Origin: a virus | Reading direction: 5' to 3' (one strand) | IMG/VR virus record: IMGVR_UViG_3300042331_000061 | Span: 1 to 32,200 of that record | DNA length: 32,200 nt | Part shown: positions 5,603 through 29,662 of the stretch, in pieces | Layout of the letters: every line of letters starts with the position of its first letter | Numbering within the stretch: the stretch's first letter is position 1 | Made by a program: the position numbers and the translations under genes | Notes under the pieces: model-generated | What the model was told of the DNA's origin: nothing | Database searches by the model: none | Seen by the model: the letters and a program-made list of their open reading frames with translations, nothing else

Positions 5603-8026
5603 ATGGCAAAGTCGATCACCCCGAACGACCTCACGCAGGTCGCCATCCAGCCGTCAGCGTCCCCCATCGCGCTCAACGTCCTCCCGGCACCCGGGCAGCG
5701 TCTCGCGGGGAACACCCTCCAGCAGGTCGGTGAGTCCCTCGCAGCCTTCAGCCCCGCCCTCCAAGGGATGCTGGCGCAGCGCGTGGAGGAGGACAAGCGG
5801 CAGCTTGCGGCGATGGGTGCCGCCGTTGACTTCTCCAAGGCGTTCGACGTTCCGATGGACGCCTCCCCCGTGGAGCGCCAGGCTGCCCTCAACGACCTCT
5901 TCAAGAAGGCCATCGCCAAGCAGGGTGGCCCAGACTCCGCGAACCCGTTCTTCCTGATCGCCGCGAGGCAGAACTTCGGTCGTGCCGTGGGCCTTCGCTA
6001 CCGCAACGCCCTCGCATCCCTCCAGGCAGAGGCGACCAACCCCGACTCCCCTGCGGCATTCGGGGACATCGCCCGGAAGGCCGCGGAGATGGCCGGGGCA
6101 TCCGAGGCGACCAAGGACGTCTACGGTGCCTCCGGGTTCGCCTCCGTCGCGCAGGAGGTCAACGCCGAGATGAGCATCCGCTTCCAGGAGGAGCTCAGGA
6201 AACGGCAGGAGTTCGTCAGCACGGAGCGGGCGCAGAACGGCATCGCGGATGCCCTCAAGGTCGCCGCGTCCAACCCGGAGGGATTCAAGATGGAGTCCCC
6301 GGTGGGGCAGGCGATGCAGCAGATCATCGACTCCTACCAGCTCACCACGACCGATCCGGAAACCTCCCGGAGGATGGTCATCGGTGCCTTCCAGAACGCC
6401 ATGAGGTCGGCACGGGACGAGTCGGATGCCGAGGAGATGGCGAATGCCCTCGGCACCGCATCCTTCGGGAAGGCCGCCATCCGGGACAACGTCGCCCTCT
6501 ACGCCCGCATCCTGACCATCAAGGACGAGAGGATCCGGGAGATCGAGGCAGAGGAGATCAAGAAGGACCGGGTGTTCCGCCAGCAGGTCACCAAGGGTGT
6601 CCGTGACATCTACGGGATGGGCCTCGCGGACGAGGTATCCGCCCAGATCCTCGCGGGCAACGACGACCAGGCACAGGTCATCCTCGAGAAGAAGATCGAC
6701 GAGTGGCGGACCAAGAACCCTGACCTCGACCCGACCATCGCCAACATGGTCCGCTTCGAGGTGCAGAAGGACCTGTCTGGCATGACGGCCTCCGTGGGCA
6801 CCCAGCGCAACGCCATGAACGCCCGCCTGTTCGAGCAGGGCTTCGACCTGGTCGATGAAGGCATCCTCAGCTCCGCAGACTCCCTGCGTGGATGGATGCA
6901 GGACCGTGGGCTGACCATCGACCAGCAGATGAACCTCAAGCGGTACTTTGACGCCAACGTCGGGGTGGTCCGCACGGCTGCATCCTCCTATGCCTCCCAG
7001 AAGGGCAAGGAGATCCAGCAGCGGATCCTGACCGGCATGGCCTCCGGAGGGATGCTCCCGGTCAACCCCCAGACGATGCAGCCCATGATCGGGCCCGAGC
7101 AGCTCGACCAGGCGCAGACCCTCGAGGAGTCGTGGCGTGACGGGGCCTTCAAGGAGGTCCAGCGGTTCGTCCGCGGAGAAGCCAAGGACCCTGCCTCGGG
7201 GATGACCTACGAGCAGATCAAGCGGGAGAGCGGCACCGAGGCCGCCAACCGCAGCATCAGCGGGGTCCTCGACTCCTACTACGACTCCCGGATCAAGTCC
7301 TACAACGAGGTCCAGCGGGCCAACAAGGCTGCGGCGGATGCAGGGGTCAAGGTCGGCAAGGCGGAGCCCACGCCGACTCAGGCGTTCACGCAGGACCAGG
7401 CGCTCCTCGTCAAGGGATCCGTGGACACCCTGGCACAGTCCTTCGAGTCCGTCCCGATGAACGTGGAGCAGCAGGAAGAGGCCGTCAAGGTTGGGCTCGA
7501 CCAGGAGATCACCGACATCTACGAGATCGGTCGGAACTTCAGCGTGGTCCCGCAGACCTTCCGCGGACGTGCCACGGTTGACGAGAGGCTCCTCGCCAAG
7601 AGGCTGTCGGAGCAGTTCAAGGTGGCCTCCACGCAGGGTGTCGCCAAGGCGGTCCGCATGGGATTCCTCCTCAACGACAGCATCGAGTTCACCCCTGACT
7701 CCGTCCTCCAGCAATACGGTCGGGTGCGTCGATCCCTGCTATCCGGGCTCTCCCCGAAGGAAATCCTCGCCAACGAAACCTATGAGGGTCTCCCGGTCTT
7801 CGGGACCGTCCTCCCTGCCCGTGGGCAGGCCCTCGAGTTCTCCTTCTCCGTGCCTTGCTTCCGGAACAGGTCCGAGATGGCAAGCGCCGACACCGTCAAC
7901 AAGGTCATGGATGCCCTCGGGCTCCCCCAGGACCGTGCCCTGCGCGAGGCGTGGGTGGCACGGCAGGCGACCCTCCTCCGACTCTCCGAGACCGTCCAGC
8001 GAATGAACACCGGCGGACGTCTCTGA
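5603..8026 (+). CDS. Internal virion protein C (T7 gp15-like ejection protein)
   Basis: An 807-aa, largely helical protein (T7 gp15, 747 aa) in the gp15 position. The N-terminal region (PAPGQRLAGNTLQQVGESLA) and the absence of transmembrane segments fit the periplasmic tunnel component of the T7 ejectosome. The ATG directly follows the upstream TAA stop. Assignment rests on position, size and composition more than on a unique motif. Confidence 0.85.
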   Translation: MAKSITPNDLTQVAIQPSASPIALNVLPAPGQRLAGNTLQQVGESLAAFSPALQGMLAQRVEEDKRQLAAMGAAVDFSKAFDVPMDASPVERQAALNDLFKKAIAKQGGPDSANPFFLIAARQNFGRAVGLRYRNALASLQAEATNPDSPAAFGDIARKAAEMAGASEATKDVYGASGFASVAQEVNAEMSIRFQEELRKRQEFVSTERAQNGIADALKVAASNPEGFKMESPVGQAMQQIIDSYQLTTTDPETSRRMVIGAFQNAMRSARDESDAEEMANALGTASFGKAAIRDNVALYARILTIKDERIREIEAEEIKKDRVFRQQVTKGVRDIYGMGLADEVSAQILAGNDDQAQVILEKKIDEWRTKNPDLDPTIANMVRFEVQKDLSGMTASVGTQRNAMNARLFEQGFDLVDEGILSSADSLRGWMQDRGLTIDQQMNLKRYFDANVGVVRTAASSYASQKGKEIQQRILTGMASGGMLPVNPQTMQPMIGPEQLDQAQTLEESWRDGAFKEVQRFVRGEAKDPASGMTYEQIKRESGTEAANRSISGVLDSYYDSRIKSYNEVQRANKAAADAGVKVGKAEPTPTQAFTQDQALLVKGSVDTLAQSFESVPMNVEQQEEAVKVGLDQEITDIYEIGRNFSVVPQTFRGRATVDERLLAKRLSEQFKVASTQGVAKAVRMGFLLNDSIEFTPDSVLQQYGRVRRSLLSGLSPKEILANETYEGLPVFGTVLPARGQALEFSFSVPCFRNRSEMASADTVNKVMDALGLPQDRALREAWVARQATLLRLSETVQRMNTGGRL

Positions 8027-14099: not shown

Positions 14100-15791
14100 T
14101 TGCAGGACAACCTTGACCCGAGGCTGAAGGACTTCAGGAACGTCCTCTACCTCACCTGGAACGCCATCGGGCTCCCCGAGCCCACCAAGGTCCAGTACGA
14201 GATGGCCGACTGGGTCCAGAACGGTCCCCGCAGGCAGGTGCTCATGGCCTTCCGAGGGGTGGGCAAGAGCTGGATCACGTCCGCCTTCGTGATGCACCAG
14301 CTCATGCTGGACCCCTCGAAGCAGTTCCTCGTCGTGTCGGCATCCAAGCAGAGGGCTGACGAGTTCACCAACTTCTGCAAGAAGCTCATGGCGGCGGTGC
14401 CCCTGTTCCACCACCTGGCACCGAGGGATGCCCAGAGGAACTCCTCCATCGCCTTCGACGTGGCCCCGGCTCCCCCGAGCCATGCACCGAGCGTGAAGAG
14501 CCTCGGCGTCACGGGGCAGCTCACGGGCTCCCGTGCCGACTGCGTCATCCTCGACGACGTGGAGGTGTCCAACAACTCGGCCACCACCACCATGAGGGAG
14601 CAGCTCCAGGAGCGGATCAAGGAAGTGGATGCCATCATCAAGCCAGGGGGCAGGGTGGTGTTCCTCGGTACTCCCCAGACCGAGGAGTCCATCTACCACG
14701 TCCTGAACGAACGCGGCTACGAGTGCCGCATCTGGCCGGCCCTGTACCCCAAGGAAGAGGAGATCCAGTCCTACGGCGGAAGACTTGCCCCCTCGGTCAC
14801 GGAAGAGTGGTCCGAGTCGAGGGTCGGAGAGCCCACGGATCCCAAGAGGTTCTCGAAGGAGGACCTCCAGGAGCGGGCCCTGTCCTGGGGCAGGTCCGGG
14901 TTCCAGCTCCAGTTCATGCTCAGCACGTCATTGAGCGATGCCGAGCGGTATCCGTTGAGGCTCTCCGACCTCATTTCCTATGGAGGCGACCCGGAGCAGG
15001 GCCCGGAGCGGCTCGTCTGGTCAGGAGCATCGGACAGGGTCGAGGAAGACCTCCCGTCCGTGGGCTTCAAGGGAGACCGCTGGCACAGGCCGCAGGTCAT
15101 CTCCGAGAAGTTCCTGCCCTACACGGGCTCCGTCATGGCAATCGACCCCTCGGGACGTGGCGAGGACGAGACCGGCTACGCGGTCATCAAGATGCTCAAC
15201 GGATGGATGCACCTCACGGCAGCCGGCGGCCTCCGCGGCGGCTACACCCCGGAGAACCTCAAGGCACTCGCCAAGGTCGCCAGGGACCAGAAGGTCAACC
15301 GCATCCTCGTCGAGTCGAACTTCGGGGACGGGATGTTCACCCAGCTCCTCACCCCGTACCTCCGGGAGACATGGCCCTGCACCACCGAGGAGGTCCGCCA
15401 CTCCACCCAGAAGGAGAAGCGGATCATCGACACCCTCGAGCCCGTGATGAACCAGCACAGGCTGGTGGTGCAGCCCTCGGTCGTCAGGGCCGACTACGAG
15501 TCCACCAAGGGACTCCCCCCGGAGAAGCAGCTCTCCTACATGCTCTTCCACCAGCTCACCCGGATCACCCGGGACAGGGGAAGCCTCCGCCACGATGACC
15601 GCCTCGATGCCCTGAGCATGGCCGTGGGGTACTGGGCCAAGGCGGTCGCCGTGGACGTTGACCGCATGATCCGCGAGAGGAAGCAGAGGGACATGGACAA
15701 GGAAATCGAACGCTTCGAGGATGCCCACAGGCGCTCCTTCGGCGGCCCAAGGAACACAGGTCTCAACTGGATGGCAAAGAATCACCCATGA
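14100..15791 (+). CDS. Terminase large subunit (T7 gp19-like)
   Basis: The 563-aa packaging motor ATPase and nuclease (T7 gp19, 586 aa). The Walker A-type motif FRGVGKSW lies near residues 51-58, Walker B VILDDVE near 149-155, and the coupling motif FLGTPQTEESIYHVL follows. The C-terminal RNase H-like nuclease shows acidic residues in MAIDPSGRGED (about 345), VESNFGDG and HDDRLDAL (about 498). The best start is TTG, 3 nt after the small-subunit stop; the next in-frame Met would remove about 35 residues that look like family sequence. The stop overlaps the next gene (ATGA). Confidence 0.95.
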   Translation: MQDNLDPRLKDFRNVLYLTWNAIGLPEPTKVQYEMADWVQNGPRRQVLMAFRGVGKSWITSAFVMHQLMLDPSKQFLVVSASKQRADEFTNFCKKLMAAVPLFHHLAPRDAQRNSSIAFDVAPAPPSHAPSVKSLGVTGQLTGSRADCVILDDVEVSNNSATTTMREQLQERIKEVDAIIKPGGRVVFLGTPQTEESIYHVLNERGYECRIWPALYPKEEEIQSYGGRLAPSVTEEWSESRVGEPTDPKRFSKEDLQERALSWGRSGFQLQFMLSTSLSDAERYPLRLSDLISYGGDPEQGPERLVWSGASDRVEEDLPSVGFKGDRWHRPQVISEKFLPYTGSVMAIDPSGRGEDETGYAVIKMLNGWMHLTAAGGLRGGYTPENLKALAKVARDQKVNRILVESNFGDGMFTQLLTPYLRETWPCTTEEVRHSTQKEKRIIDTLEPVMNQHRLVVQPSVVRADYESTKGLPPEKQLSYMLFHQLTRITRDRGSLRHDDRLDALSMAVGYWAKAVAVDVDRMIRERKQRDMDKEIERFEDAHRRSFGGPRNTGLNWMAKNHP

Positions 15792-18840: not shown

Positions 18841-18966
18841 TCCCGGTTCGTTGACGGTTCCCCTTTAGAGGCGCTAGGAGGCTCCAGGATGCGTCCGGGC
18901 AGCCCAAGGCTACCCAGGTAGCCAAAGCCCCCACGGACGCCTCCTAGGCACCAAGGAACCCCGGGA
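18841..18966 (+). terminator. Nested multi-arm hairpin after the last late gene
   Basis: Starting directly after the stop codon, arms pair in nested order: TCCCGG with CCGGGA (outermost) or the alternative GGTTCC with GGAACC, then CTAGGAG with CTCCTAG (18874/18941), GCGTCCG with CGGACGC (18891/18934), GGGC with GCCC, and GGCTACC with GGTAGCC (18908/18917). A late-operon terminator is the simplest role, but the structure is far larger than one and has no U-run. Confidence 0.55.
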
Positions 18967-19402
18967 AACGGCCTTCAGGGAGACAGGGGAGCCAAGGACA
19001 CCCAGAGCTGCCTGAGGGCACCCTGAGGCACCTATGGAACACCCGTACCTTCGGAAGACCCGAAGGACGGATCCCCGCCCTGGGTCGGGACAAAGAACCC
19101 AGGTGCCATCTCTCCGCGGAGGCTCTGACAGCAGTTGGACAGGATCCAACGACTGCCATCCTCCTGTCCTTGATAGATATTCGGGTTACCTCTGGGCCGA
19201 CAGCCACAGACATCTCCTGAAGCCATCATCATGGGGACTTGGACAAGGGACTAGAGACAGAGTTACAAGGGTCTTGGAGCCATCTAAAGGCATCCAAAAG
19301 ACACCTCTGGATAAGACAAGGGTAGAGTTAGGGTACGGCTTGACGTAGGTTATCGGACACTTGAGAGCAAGACAGGGTAGACAACCCCGTTGGTAACTTA
19401 AG

Positions 19403-19419
19403 TCCTTGTGGCACAAGGA
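19403..19419. promoter_or_regulatory. 17-bp palindrome, operator-like
   Basis: A perfect 8-bp inverted repeat around one central base (TCCTTGTG, G, CACAAGGA). The size and symmetry fit a dimeric regulator such as the winged-helix protein at 25047, but it could equally be the stem of an RNA hairpin in this hairpin-rich stretch. Confidence 0.3.
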
Positions 19420-19678
19420 GTTAGGTGTTTCAGGGTATTCTGGATAGAAGGTGCTACAGTTATCCGGAAGTAGGTCATATACGATCCAGATAACCGAGGT
19501 GGGACGTTGTCCATGAAGTCCATCCCCCAAGGGATGTGAGGTTCTGTAGGTCCCCAGATCCAAGGGTCTAGGAATTGTCACAGGGTCCCATGTACGGCCC
19601 ATAGACACGTCCAGGGTGACCTGTCGATGAATCGGGGTTTCGTGGACATGGGAGGGTCCTGAGGGGAGACCCTGCTCG

Positions 19679-19963
19679 GTGTCGCCCTATGGACATATGG
19701 GAGACAAGTTCATCAGGATCCGAGGGCAGAGGTGGAAGCTCCGCTTCGTGCCCAACCTCGGGGATAAGGCCGGGGAATGCGACTACGGAGCCAGGGTGCT
19801 CCGGATCGCCTTGGGGCAGTCACAGGAGGAAGAGCTCGACACCGTGGTCCATGAGATCCTCCATGCGGCCTACCCGGACATCGAAGAGGCTGCCGTAGGG
19901 GAAACAGGGGAGGCAATAGCCAAAGTCCTCTGGAGGTTGGGCTGGAGGAAGGCCAAGGTTTGA
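19679..19963 (+). CDS. Small HExxH zinc-metallopeptidase-like protein
   Basis: A 94-aa protein with TVVHEILHAAYPD, i.e. an HExxH motif near residues 57-61, preceded by a strand pattern YGARVLRIAL typical of compact ImmA/IrrE- or SprT-like phage metallopeptidases. The third zinc ligand is not obvious; an Asp/Glu after the motif could serve. The GTG start is chosen because GAGGGGAG lies about 9 nt upstream; an ATG six codons later lacks a ribosome site. It is the first gene after the genome-end region, so it may enter the cell early. The substrate is unknown. Confidence 0.7.
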   Translation: MSPYGHMGDKFIRIRGQRWKLRFVPNLGDKAGECDYGARVLRIALGQSQEEELDTVVHEILHAAYPDIEEAAVGETGEAIAKVLWRLGWRKAKV

Positions 19964-20010
19964 CGCAAAATTGCGAAGTGGTCATCGCAGGGGCCGGCGT
20001 CGAGGTTCCC

Positions 20011-20152
20011 CCCGTGGGGTGCCGGTCCTGCCCGTGGGCGGTCCTGAGCTGCCCGTAGGGGCCCGTGGGCACCGTCCCGCGCCACATAGGCGAGGATCCG
20101 CCTACCCGTAGGTGCGCCGCACGAGATATGGTATCCGGTGCGTAGGTGCGCC
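20011..20152. repeat. CCCGTRGG repeat cluster
   Basis: CCCGTGGG or CCCGTAGG occurs at 20011, 20031, 20052, 20062 and 20105, spaced 20, 21, 10 and 43 bp, and a 12-base repeat CGTAGGTGCGCC occurs at 20107 and 20141. Spacing near whole helical turns suggests protein-binding sites or iterons. The cluster lies 200-300 bp before the early promoter. Confidence 0.5.
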
Positions 20153-20198
20153 TGCCGCCTGCGGTCACGCTGGGGAACGCGGAAGGATCGTCCGGAAT

Positions 20199-20240
20199 AT
20201 CCGGGGTAAGTTTCAGGGTTGCCTGAAATTTGCTCCGGAT
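20199..20240 (+). promoter_or_regulatory. Two-tier hairpin upstream of the early promoter
   Basis: Outer arms ATCCGG and CCGGAT, a 3x3 internal loop, then a 10-bp inner stem (AAGTTTCAGG with CCTGAAATTT, one G-U) on a GTTG loop. It may terminate upstream transcription or be a DNA-level control site. The motif ATCCGGAT recurs at 20266. Confidence 0.45.
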
Positions 20241-20316
20241 TTACGCGAACCTGGATCATCCATGTATCCGGATGAACGGATGGATAGATTGTCTCGGAAT
20301 CCTTGCAGTTTCCTAC

Positions 20317-20345
20317 TTGACGGACCGTCACGCATCCGATACTGT
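20317..20345 (+). promoter_or_regulatory. Sigma70-like early promoter
   Basis: TTGACG, a 17-bp spacer, then TACTGT. It is followed by a transcribed inverted repeat (20355-20375) and the first small gene of the accessory operon at 20408. Host RNA polymerase would be expected to read early genes before the phage polymerase is made. Confidence 0.65.
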
Positions 20346-20354
20346 CTCAATGTA

Positions 20355-20375
20355 GTGCCGGAGCGTAACCGGCAC
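20355..20375 (+). promoter_or_regulatory. Leader hairpin with AGCGTAA loop
   Basis: A perfect 7-bp stem (GTGCCGG with CCGGCAC) on the loop AGCGTAA. It lies just downstream of the early promoter in the 5' leader. The loop matches the second hairpins at 21859-21881 and 22917-22937 although the stems differ, so it is likely a member of the same element family. Confidence 0.5.
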
Positions 20376-20407
20376 ACACTTGGAACTAGACCGAAAGTAG
20401 GAAAGCA

Positions 20408-27036: not shown

Positions 27037-27083
27037 GCCGGCGTGGCGAAATAGGCAGACGCAGCGGATTCAAAAGTCGGTGC
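27037..27083 (+). other. attP: attP: 5' half of tRNA-Leu(CAA) plus phage half-site
   Basis: Bases 27037-27075 read as the 5' half of a bacterial tRNA-Leu: acceptor strand GCCGGCG, T8-G9, D-arm with GCG ... GGCAGA ... CGC, anticodon strand GCGGA and loop TTCAAAA with anticodon CAA. The tRNA match stops exactly at the end of the loop: the next bases are GTCGG instead of the TCCGC needed to close the stem. The 8-base flanks GCAGCGGA (27061) and GTCGGTGC (27076) form an imperfect inverted repeat around the 7-base loop, the layout of core-type integrase sites. The integrase stop is just upstream. P-SSP7 is reported to carry a similar tRNA-Leu match downstream of its integrase. Confidence 0.85.
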
Positions 27084-27256: not shown

Positions 27257-29662
27257 ATGGGAAAGATCAGCCAGCGTGAGCTTGACCTCGAGTCCTACGA
27301 GAGGGGTCGAAGCCGCTACTACCGCAACGTCCGAAGGGCGATGGACAAGGGGGTGGAGAGCGAGAGCAACTGGGGTGCCCGGATGGTCGAGAGCGCCATC
27401 CTGCCGTTCTCGGACCGCCTCAAGACCGTCATGGAGACCGACACCGGGGTAGGGGCGGTGCTCCTGAAGAGCCTCGGGCTGGCCCCCGAGGTCATGGCGA
27501 TGATCGCCTTCCAGAGCCTCCTCGACGGGTGCTCCAAGAACAAGACCTTCACCCGGGGCTGCATCGAGGCGGCCAAGGCGGTGCAGGCGGAGGCCATCGC
27601 CAAGCTCCTCCGCAAGGAGAGTCCCGAGAAGTTCGAGACCTACAACATGTGGATCCACCTCCGGGGGACCCAGCGCAAGTCCAAGGACATCAAGCGGATC
27701 GCCTCCTACACCCACCCCGAGATCGTCGAGAAGTTCGCCTGGACCGACGAGGAGTCCCTCAAGGCCGGCTACGTCCTCGCCATGACCGCCTGCGAGGCCA
27801 CGGGCCTCCTCGAGCGGGTGACCTACAAGCGGTCCGCACGGCACACCGTCGCCGCCCTGGCGATGACCAAGGAGGCATGGGCCTACGCCCACAAGGCGAT
27901 GCGCCACGCAGAGACCCTGCGCCCCGTCAAGCTGCCGATGGTCGTGCCTCCCCGCAAGTGGGTCAACCCGGACGACGGCGGCTACGAGCAAGGCCTCGGT
28001 GACTCCCTCGTCCGTGGTTCCTCCAAGGTCGCCAAGGCAAGCCACACGAAGGAGGCGATGCCCCTGGTCTATGACGCCATCAACGTCATCCAGCACACCC
28101 CCTTCCGGGTGAACCAAGGCGTCCTCGCGGCTGCCCTCGCGCTCATGGAGAGCCGTTCGCCCATCGGTGACCTCGACGTCCATGAGGAGACGCCGATGCC
28201 CGAGCGACCGCCCGAGGCTGACCTGAAGACCCGCAACCTCGACCAGTTCCTCACCCTGCGGCGCTACTACATGGACTGCACCCGGATTGCCGAGAACAAC
28301 CGGAGGATCTCCTCGCGCCGCCTCGGGGTGATCCAGACCATCAACCTCGCCGTGAAGTTCGCCTCGGAGAAGGACCTGCGGTTCTTCCACGCGGCTGCCC
28401 TCGACTTCCGTGGGAGGTTCTACTGCCAGGCCACGGGCCTCTCCCACCAAGGCAACGACCTCCAGCGGGGCCTCATCGAGTTCGGCCTCGGGCACCCCGT
28501 GCCGCCCAAGAGCGAAGCCATGCAGGCGTGGCTCCGTCACGGTGCCGCCGTGCTCGGTAGGAAGGGCACCCTCGAGGAACGTGCCGGCGTCATGGCATCC
28601 ATGATCCGCTCCGGGGAGATCGACGCCATCGCCAAGGACCCGCTCTCCACGGTCCACCTCTGGGGCAAGGCCGACGAGCCCTTCTCCTACCTGGCGTGGT
28701 GCCTCGACATGCCCTTGGTCCGCGCCGGCAAGCCATCGCACCTGATGGTCGCCGTGGACGGCAGCTGCAACGGCCTCCAGGTCCTCAGCCTCCTCCTGAA
28801 GGACGAGGTCGGTGCCGCCGCGGTCAACGTCATTCCCTCCGACCGCCCGAGCGACATCTACCAGATGGTCGCGGACCGGACGATGGACCGCATCCGGGAT
28901 GCGGCGAGGCTCGGGGAGAACTTCGCCCGCGAGTGGGAGGCACTCGGGGTCAGCCGCTCGATGGTGAAGCGCCCGGTCATGTGCTTGCCGTACTCGATCA
29001 GCCAGCGGTCAGCGATGCTCTACCTGAAGGAGGCGTACCTCGAGAACCACCGGGACGGCCCGTGGATGGACCCGAGCAAGCCCTGCGGGTTCCTCATCCG
29101 GAAGGTGTGGCCGAGCATCGGGGAGATCGTGGTGAAGGGCACCCAGTTCCTCGCTTGGGCACGGAAGGCAGGGCAGGTCATCGTCAATGCCGGCATCCAC
29201 CCCATGTGGGTGACCCCGGACGGCTTCACGGTGCAGCAGTCCTACTACTCCTACGAGCCCTCGAAGGTGAAGACCACCCTCGGGAAGCAGGCGCACATCT
29301 GGCAGATCCGGAACCAGACCGCACGGATCGACCGCAGGAAGCATGTCAACGGGATCGTCCCGAACCTCGTCCACAGCCTCGACGCCACGGCTGCACGGAT
29401 GACGGCGAGACGCCTGGTCAAGGCCAAGATCCCGGACATGGCGTTCGTCCACGACTCATACCTCGTCCACGCCGCGTTCCACCCGGTGCTTGCCCGTGAG
29501 CTGCGCGAGGCATGGATCGACACGTTCGAGGGTGACCCCCTGAAGGACTGGATGCGGCAGATCGAGGCGCAGCTTCCGAAGGGGTTCACGCTCCCGGAGC
29601 CCCCGGGCTACGGCAACCTCGACATCACGCAGCTGCGGAACTCGAAGTATTTCTTTGCTTGA
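27257..29662 (+). CDS. T7-type single-subunit RNA polymerase
   Basis: An 801-aa polymerase (T7, 883 aa), shorter in the N-terminal promoter-binding part. Seen motifs: DFRGRFY, then GNDLQRGLIEF; catalytic Asp in VDGSCNGLQ (about 501); Lys and Tyr of the O-helix in VKRPVMCLPYS (about 570 and 579); NGIVPNLVHSLDATA; and His-Asp of motif C in FVHDSYL (about 731-732). It ends KYFFA, comparable to the FAFA foot of the T7 enzyme. All catalytic residues are present. No strong ribosome site is visible before the ATG. It would transcribe middle and late genes from phage promoters I could not define. Confidence 0.96.
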   Translation: MGKISQRELDLESYERGRSRYYRNVRRAMDKGVESESNWGARMVESAILPFSDRLKTVMETDTGVGAVLLKSLGLAPEVMAMIAFQSLLDGCSKNKTFTRGCIEAAKAVQAEAIAKLLRKESPEKFETYNMWIHLRGTQRKSKDIKRIASYTHPEIVEKFAWTDEESLKAGYVLAMTACEATGLLERVTYKRSARHTVAALAMTKEAWAYAHKAMRHAETLRPVKLPMVVPPRKWVNPDDGGYEQGLGDSLVRGSSKVAKASHTKEAMPLVYDAINVIQHTPFRVNQGVLAAALALMESRSPIGDLDVHEETPMPERPPEADLKTRNLDQFLTLRRYYMDCTRIAENNRRISSRRLGVIQTINLAVKFASEKDLRFFHAAALDFRGRFYCQATGLSHQGNDLQRGLIEFGLGHPVPPKSEAMQAWLRHGAAVLGRKGTLEERAGVMASMIRSGEIDAIAKDPLSTVHLWGKADEPFSYLAWCLDMPLVRAGKPSHLMVAVDGSCNGLQVLSLLLKDEVGAAAVNVIPSDRPSDIYQMVADRTMDRIRDAARLGENFAREWEALGVSRSMVKRPVMCLPYSISQRSAMLYLKEAYLENHRDGPWMDPSKPCGFLIRKVWPSIGEIVVKGTQFLAWARKAGQVIVNAGIHPMWVTPDGFTVQQSYYSYEPSKVKTTLGKQAHIWQIRNQTARIDRRKHVNGIVPNLVHSLDATAARMTARRLVKAKIPDMAFVHDSYLVHAAFHPVLARELREAWIDTFEGDPLKDWMRQIEAQLPKGFTLPEPPGYGNLDITQLRNSKYFFA

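Follow-up and report, generated by a model that had tools for sequence, protein, structure and literature searches.

A conserved structured RNA in the likely concatemer-junction region of an uncultivated T7-like phage lineage

The window analysed here, a 32,200-base virus record, has genes that run from the major capsid protein and tail proteins through a T7-type terminase large subunit, a tail gene and a small gene to a stretch at 18841-19678. This stretch is followed by a small gene for an HExxH protein, an ArdC-type anti-restriction gene, early genes and an integrase, the order continuing past the integrase with a T7-type RNA polymerase at 27257-29662, SSB and a helicase/primase. The window thus follows the T7 map through the point where its ends join, the late end meeting the early end at 18841-19678. 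The features of the locus outside its central RNA domain are:

14100..15791, + strand: T7-type terminase large subunit (phrog_38, PF22530)
18841..19696, no strand assigned: gene-free late/early junction region, with no conserved frame, between the terminase/tail and early blocks
18867..18952, + strand: 5' block D1, a predicted long hairpin with conserved sequence and little covariation (fold z -3.2)
19399..19423, no strand assigned: TAAGTCCTT..ACAAGGAGTTA, an imperfect palindrome that occurs once in the window (fold z -4.1)
19665..19677, no strand assigned: invariant 13-mer GGAGACCCTGCTC, about 20 nt 5' of the start of the next gene and identical in 37 loci
19697..19963, + strand: small HExxH (metallopeptidase-like) gene, from the alignment of homologues
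20317..20345, + strand: possible host-type early promoter TTGACG-17-TACTGT, seen by eye only, the promoter scan being silent

For the HExxH gene, a comparison of starts makes the ATG at 19697 more likely than the GTG at 19679. Its product had no match in Pfam, and neither a search for the protein in phages and GTDB genomes nor a DNA search with the region in annotated phages returned anything. Just 3' of the tyrosine integrase, at 27037-27075, 39 nt resemble a tRNA-Leu gene in its 5' half and are the likely attP core. As this tRNA-Leu-like stretch adjoins the integrase, a temperate phage that uses a tRNA-Leu gene for integration is probable, and an attP inside 18841-19678 is ruled out on the same ground; an exact 36-nt pattern from 27037-27075, used for a host search in GTDB genomes, gave 0 matches. 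Two further sets of hairpins were seen elsewhere in the window. Early hairpins at 20360, 21864 and 22921 have a common loop, GGAGCGTMA, on differing stems, two of them being followed by TGATGATGGGCAG, and may represent a recurring element for the processing of RNA or for regulation. The 16-mer TCCGGGGAAACCCGGG, identical at 92-107 and 1372-1387 on either side of the major capsid gene, forms a hairpin with a GAAA-type loop and possibly represents terminators or processing sites.

The initial annotation had described 18841-19678 as lacking credible genes and as differing in composition from the late genes, and both observations stand. The paper ORFs of 66-140 aa found there have frames that are broken in relatives, most indels among which are not multiples of 3; further, the GC content falls to 0.48-0.55 and the GC skew changes sign at ~19240, just 3' of the RNA domain described below. 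This flip fits a seam between two genome ends, without being proof of one. Folding of the stretch lies below dinucleotide shuffles on both strands, in keeping with its proposed structured character (z = -4.6 on the + strand and -3.7 on the - strand with 20 shuffles; -4.1 and -2.7 with 10), while 838-nt control windows from the same genome mostly gave z of about -1.5 to +1, with some near -3. On the minus strand the running mean of the 120-nt z-scores reaches its minimum for the whole window at 18841-19678, and several parts of the stretch are unremarkable by fold z on 120-nt windows. The count of at least eleven inverted repeats with hardly any spacer survives as a modest excess of stems (eight perfect stems of at least 6 bp against 4.0 expected, with 9 of 200 shuffles reaching as many, and four of at least 7 bp against 1.1, with 4 of 200), the packing having been overstated. 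A second gene-free stretch at 19964-20407, which contains the promoter noted by eye, folds more strongly than 18841-19678 (z -5.6 on the + strand and -4.0 on the - strand).

Relatives were gathered by terminase and small-gene searches and fall into three groups: group 1, about 12 distinct homologues of the gene-free stretch; group 2, six more distant contigs (L098-L103); and group 3 (L133-L139), in which the terminase lies directly upstream of a gap of ~360-420 nt. BLAST from the window matched group 1 and, beyond it, gave only a short reverse-strand match in L133. The gap is longest, at ~1,120 nt, in L082, where an insertion of ~450 nt with its own ORFs (~1180-1640) lies between the RNA domain and the invariant 13-mer. 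In L091 a match to the Rfam type II hammerhead ribozyme (5848-5919, + strand; 37.9 bits against a gathering score of 37) was seen ~2.3 kb 3' of the junction. Candidates from DNA patterns were set aside: L195, L196, L198, L200, L204, L206, L207, L209, L210 and L213 were judged to be chance since they have no adjoining gene homologue and no model match, and L179, L183, L186 and L188 are likewise unconvincing.

Within the gene-free stretch, one domain of about 150 nt, here called the core, combines the following elements:

19029..19180, + strand: conserved structured RNA domain (core), defined by covariation, the covariance model R1 and wobble bias
19031..19037, + strand: CCTATGG heptamer at the core start, conserved in groups 1-3 and of the type found in the arrays of relatives
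19043..19070, + strand: hairpin hpA (19043-19046 with 19067-19070; 19048-19054 with 19060-19066)
19079..19103, + strand: hairpin P1 (19079-19085 with 19097-19103)
19112..19121, + strand: short hairpin P2 (19112-19115 with 19118-19121), 100% paired
19129..19155, + strand: hairpin P3 (19129-19131 with 19153-19155; 19134-19138 with 19146-19150)
19139..19167, + strand: pseudoknot between the P3 loop at 19139-19144 (ACAGGA) and 19162-19167 (TCCTGT)

The core was tested on MAFFT alignments built without structure. Both partners have changed at 13 of the 36 pairs of the domain, and 91% of cells are paired, a percentage biased towards the window, from whose sequence the tested structure was drawn by eye; in the control, with partners slid by 1-3 columns, 39-45% were paired and 1-3 such pairs appeared. 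The compensatory changes are not explained by the by-eye choice of structure alone. They are most pronounced in P1, where each of the seven pairs shows changes in both partners and pairing is kept in 77 of 77 cells from 11 sequences including one group 2 member. P3 shows such changes at four of its eight pairs, part of it being misaligned by MAFFT, and hpA at three of 11, this hairpin being absent or replaced in L092-L096. P2 gives little covariation evidence because it is nearly invariant, and the pseudoknot is 100% paired, with variation at two pairs, by G-U only. The alignment of homologues that had been proposed for the stretch thus yielded compensatory pairing beyond controls in 19029-19180 only; a sliding consensus fold over the rest of the gene-free stretch indicated weak covariation.

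The wobbles in the core helices, 16 G-U versus one A-C when read on the + strand, identify the + strand as the RNA strand. Further, the covariance model R1, built on group 1, recovers L098, L100, L101, L102 and L103 (E ~1e-5), in each case on the + strand and in the corresponding position. In group 2 a P3-like hairpin has the loop GTGG with CCAC just 3' of it, giving the same pseudoknot topology as in group 1 with another sequence. R1 has no match in group 3, where two hairpins come after CCTATGG, the first of them varying with compensation. Additionally, the junction of L133-L137 (e.g., L137:2350-2441) holds the series CCAAGG...CCTTGG...CCAAGG, in which two mutually exclusive pairings are possible and whose segments are invariant in four distinct aligned sequences. 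In the group 2 contig L099 the core has been lost while the HExxH gene is kept, which means that the core is not strictly needed. Taken together, the alignments make it very likely that a conserved + strand RNA is encoded at 19029-19180. It is previously undescribed: a covariance-model search for GOLLD and ROOL, the large ornate phage RNAs to which the initial annotation had pointed, matched neither of them nor any other Rfam 15 family. Neither the window nor the junctions of nine relatives gave a match at the gathering score, and the weak matches in the region (best E 0.5-4) belong to unrelated families. The T7 genome likewise gave no match to the core RNA model.

Of the other conserved elements, the palindrome at 19399-19423 is kept in most group 1 relatives, being absent in L082 and partly so in L095; it was rejected as a T7-type phage promoter, there being a single copy in the window and no recurrence upstream of genes. 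The 13-mer GGAGACCCTGCTC is not coding, as it falls in different frames among relatives, and a reading as Shine-Dalgarno plus start was discarded because these frames vary and the true start lies further 3'.

The placing of 18841-19678 between the terminase-side late end and the early genes is that of a T7-type concatemer junction. The expectation that terminal repeats of T7-like phages sit here agrees with the gene order and, additionally, with circular assemblies and heptamer arrays of relatives. The assemblies of two relatives are circular and enclose the junction, G009 having an exact end overlap of 127 nt and G007 one of 212 nt at 99%; such circles could alternatively stem from lysogenic cyclisation, given that the phage has an integrase. 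The heptamers CCTAAGG/CCTATGG occur in one or two copies in the window, while L099 carries 16 copies of CCTAWRG against ~0.5 in shuffles and L101-L103 carry 5-8, all on the + strand, 3' of the core and 5' of the next gene; the arrays are weak in L094-L096. None of the contigs inspected for a terminal repeat ends inside the region, and the genome ends or terminal repeat may lie in the gene-free 19964-20407 instead. Nevertheless, gene order, assemblies and arrays together argue with good confidence for 18841-19696 as a T7-type concatemer-junction region, within which a direct terminal repeat would be expected. The region sits like such a junction region and probably works like one. The initial alternative of a terminal repeat or a large structured RNA is therefore to be recast: the junction position and the RNA were both recovered, the latter at ~150 nt rather than 840, and the two are compatible and not alternatives. 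That a junction region and a conserved RNA are indeed present together is fairly probable.

As regards function, late transcripts of the phage polymerase would run rightward through the junction, including the core at 19029-19180. The core RNA, with hpA, the covarying P1, the short P2 and P3 with its loop pseudoknot, would fold on the nascent + strand and could act in cis while the late side of the junction is being transcribed. There the fold would most likely pause the polymerase and mark the junction for the terminase, a pause that might be likened to that of the T7 polymerase-lysozyme complex at the junction. Such a role in cis, whether in the maturation of ends or in pausing of the polymerase, is put forward tentatively, its chances being somewhat short of even.

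The main rivals to a cis mechanism are a small RNA acting in trans and a leader of the HExxH gene. In the first, the core would be a free-standing phage regulatory RNA directed at host or phage targets and encoded at the junction by chance. The compactness of the domain, which includes a pseudoknot of its own, its covariation and its strand bias would suit this, as would the lack of a demonstrated conserved function tied to the adjoining sequence, but the core occupies one and the same place in every relative that has it and no promoter or terminator was recognised around it, which leaves this explanation rather unlikely. The second, a 5' UTR element regulating the gene at 19697, draws on the position of the core directly upstream on the gene's strand and on the HExxH gene always lying 3' of the core in both group 1 and group 2. 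It is quite doubtful in view of the ~500 nt between the core and the start codon, the retention of the gene without the core in L099, and L034, which has a T7-type terminase and the HExxH gene with only ~170 nt before the latter and lacks the region; most other homologues of the gene also occur in contexts without it.

It is improbable that the stretch is only structure-prone DNA, with hairpins or palindromes as sites at which DNA is cut, replication starts or proteins bind, and no functional RNA: folding below shuffles on both strands, the single-copy palindrome and the invariant 13-mer would accord with this, but the 16:1 ratio of G-U to A-C in the helices suits a + strand RNA and not duplex DNA, and the pseudoknot topology recurs in group 2 with a different sequence. 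A GOLLD- or ROOL-like RNA filling the whole 840 nt is scarcely credible, since the similar size and the folding energy below shuffles are set against the absence of an Rfam match by gathering score or E-value, covariation confined to the core, and a gap ranging from ~360-420 nt in group 3 to ~1,120 nt in L082.

Returning to the cis role, the completion of the left repeat before packaging in T7-type phages is described as still not fully understood (PMC3350473), and a conserved RNA fold at the site of this completion would offer a concrete, testable element. A more specific form is a long shot: an RNA cofactor or signal, encoded by the lineage at its concatemer junction, through which the terminase or the phage polymerase would locate the genome ends and cut them. 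If true, it would give end maturation a step that depends on RNA, of a kind not known from T7-like phages. Independently of this, uncultivated T7-like phages gain a structured RNA that is well supported and has no counterpart in Rfam 15.

Among known systems, the pRNA of phi29 is a small structured phage RNA that functions in packaging. The core resembles it as a small structured phage RNA positionally tied to the genome end, but phi29 is another type of phage with another motor and the core has no Rfam match; a packaging role for the core RNA is conjecture. GOLLD and ROOL are RNA cages that measure 600-800 nt or longer and often lie close to tRNA islands (PMC12286853). They share with the core the character of structured phage RNAs without a coding role and differ from it in size and in being matched by Rfam models.

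The cyanophage P-SSP7 was likewise assembled as a circle through the junction, with a 728-bp stretch there, before end sequencing found a terminal repeat of 206 bp (PMC3350473). Its ends were thus placed by sequencing, whereas the present junction is a placement from assembled sequence, and the text consulted reports no RNA at its junction. The Pseudomonas phage LUZ100 (OP329100), among the closest isolates by terminase at ~55% identity, shares the T7-type terminase, temperate features, and a terminal repeat (244 bp) located after the terminase and before the first host promoters; no structured RNA is described there in the text consulted.

T7 itself (NC_001604) has a 160-bp terminal repeat with CCTAAAG arrays, 11 copies lying in the first 340 bases and five near the right end, on one strand throughout; arrays of this kind are not universal among T7-type junctions. 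Its junction shares with the present one the place between late and early genes, the poverty in genes, the one-strand heptamer arrays (here in relatives) and folding below shuffles; the supposition that T7-like terminal regions are poor in stems does not hold, T7's own junction having z ~ -3. The present lineage differs from T7 in its conserved RNA domain and in an additional gene ahead of the likely early promoter, and its novelty lies in a T7-type junction that bears an undescribed conserved RNA.
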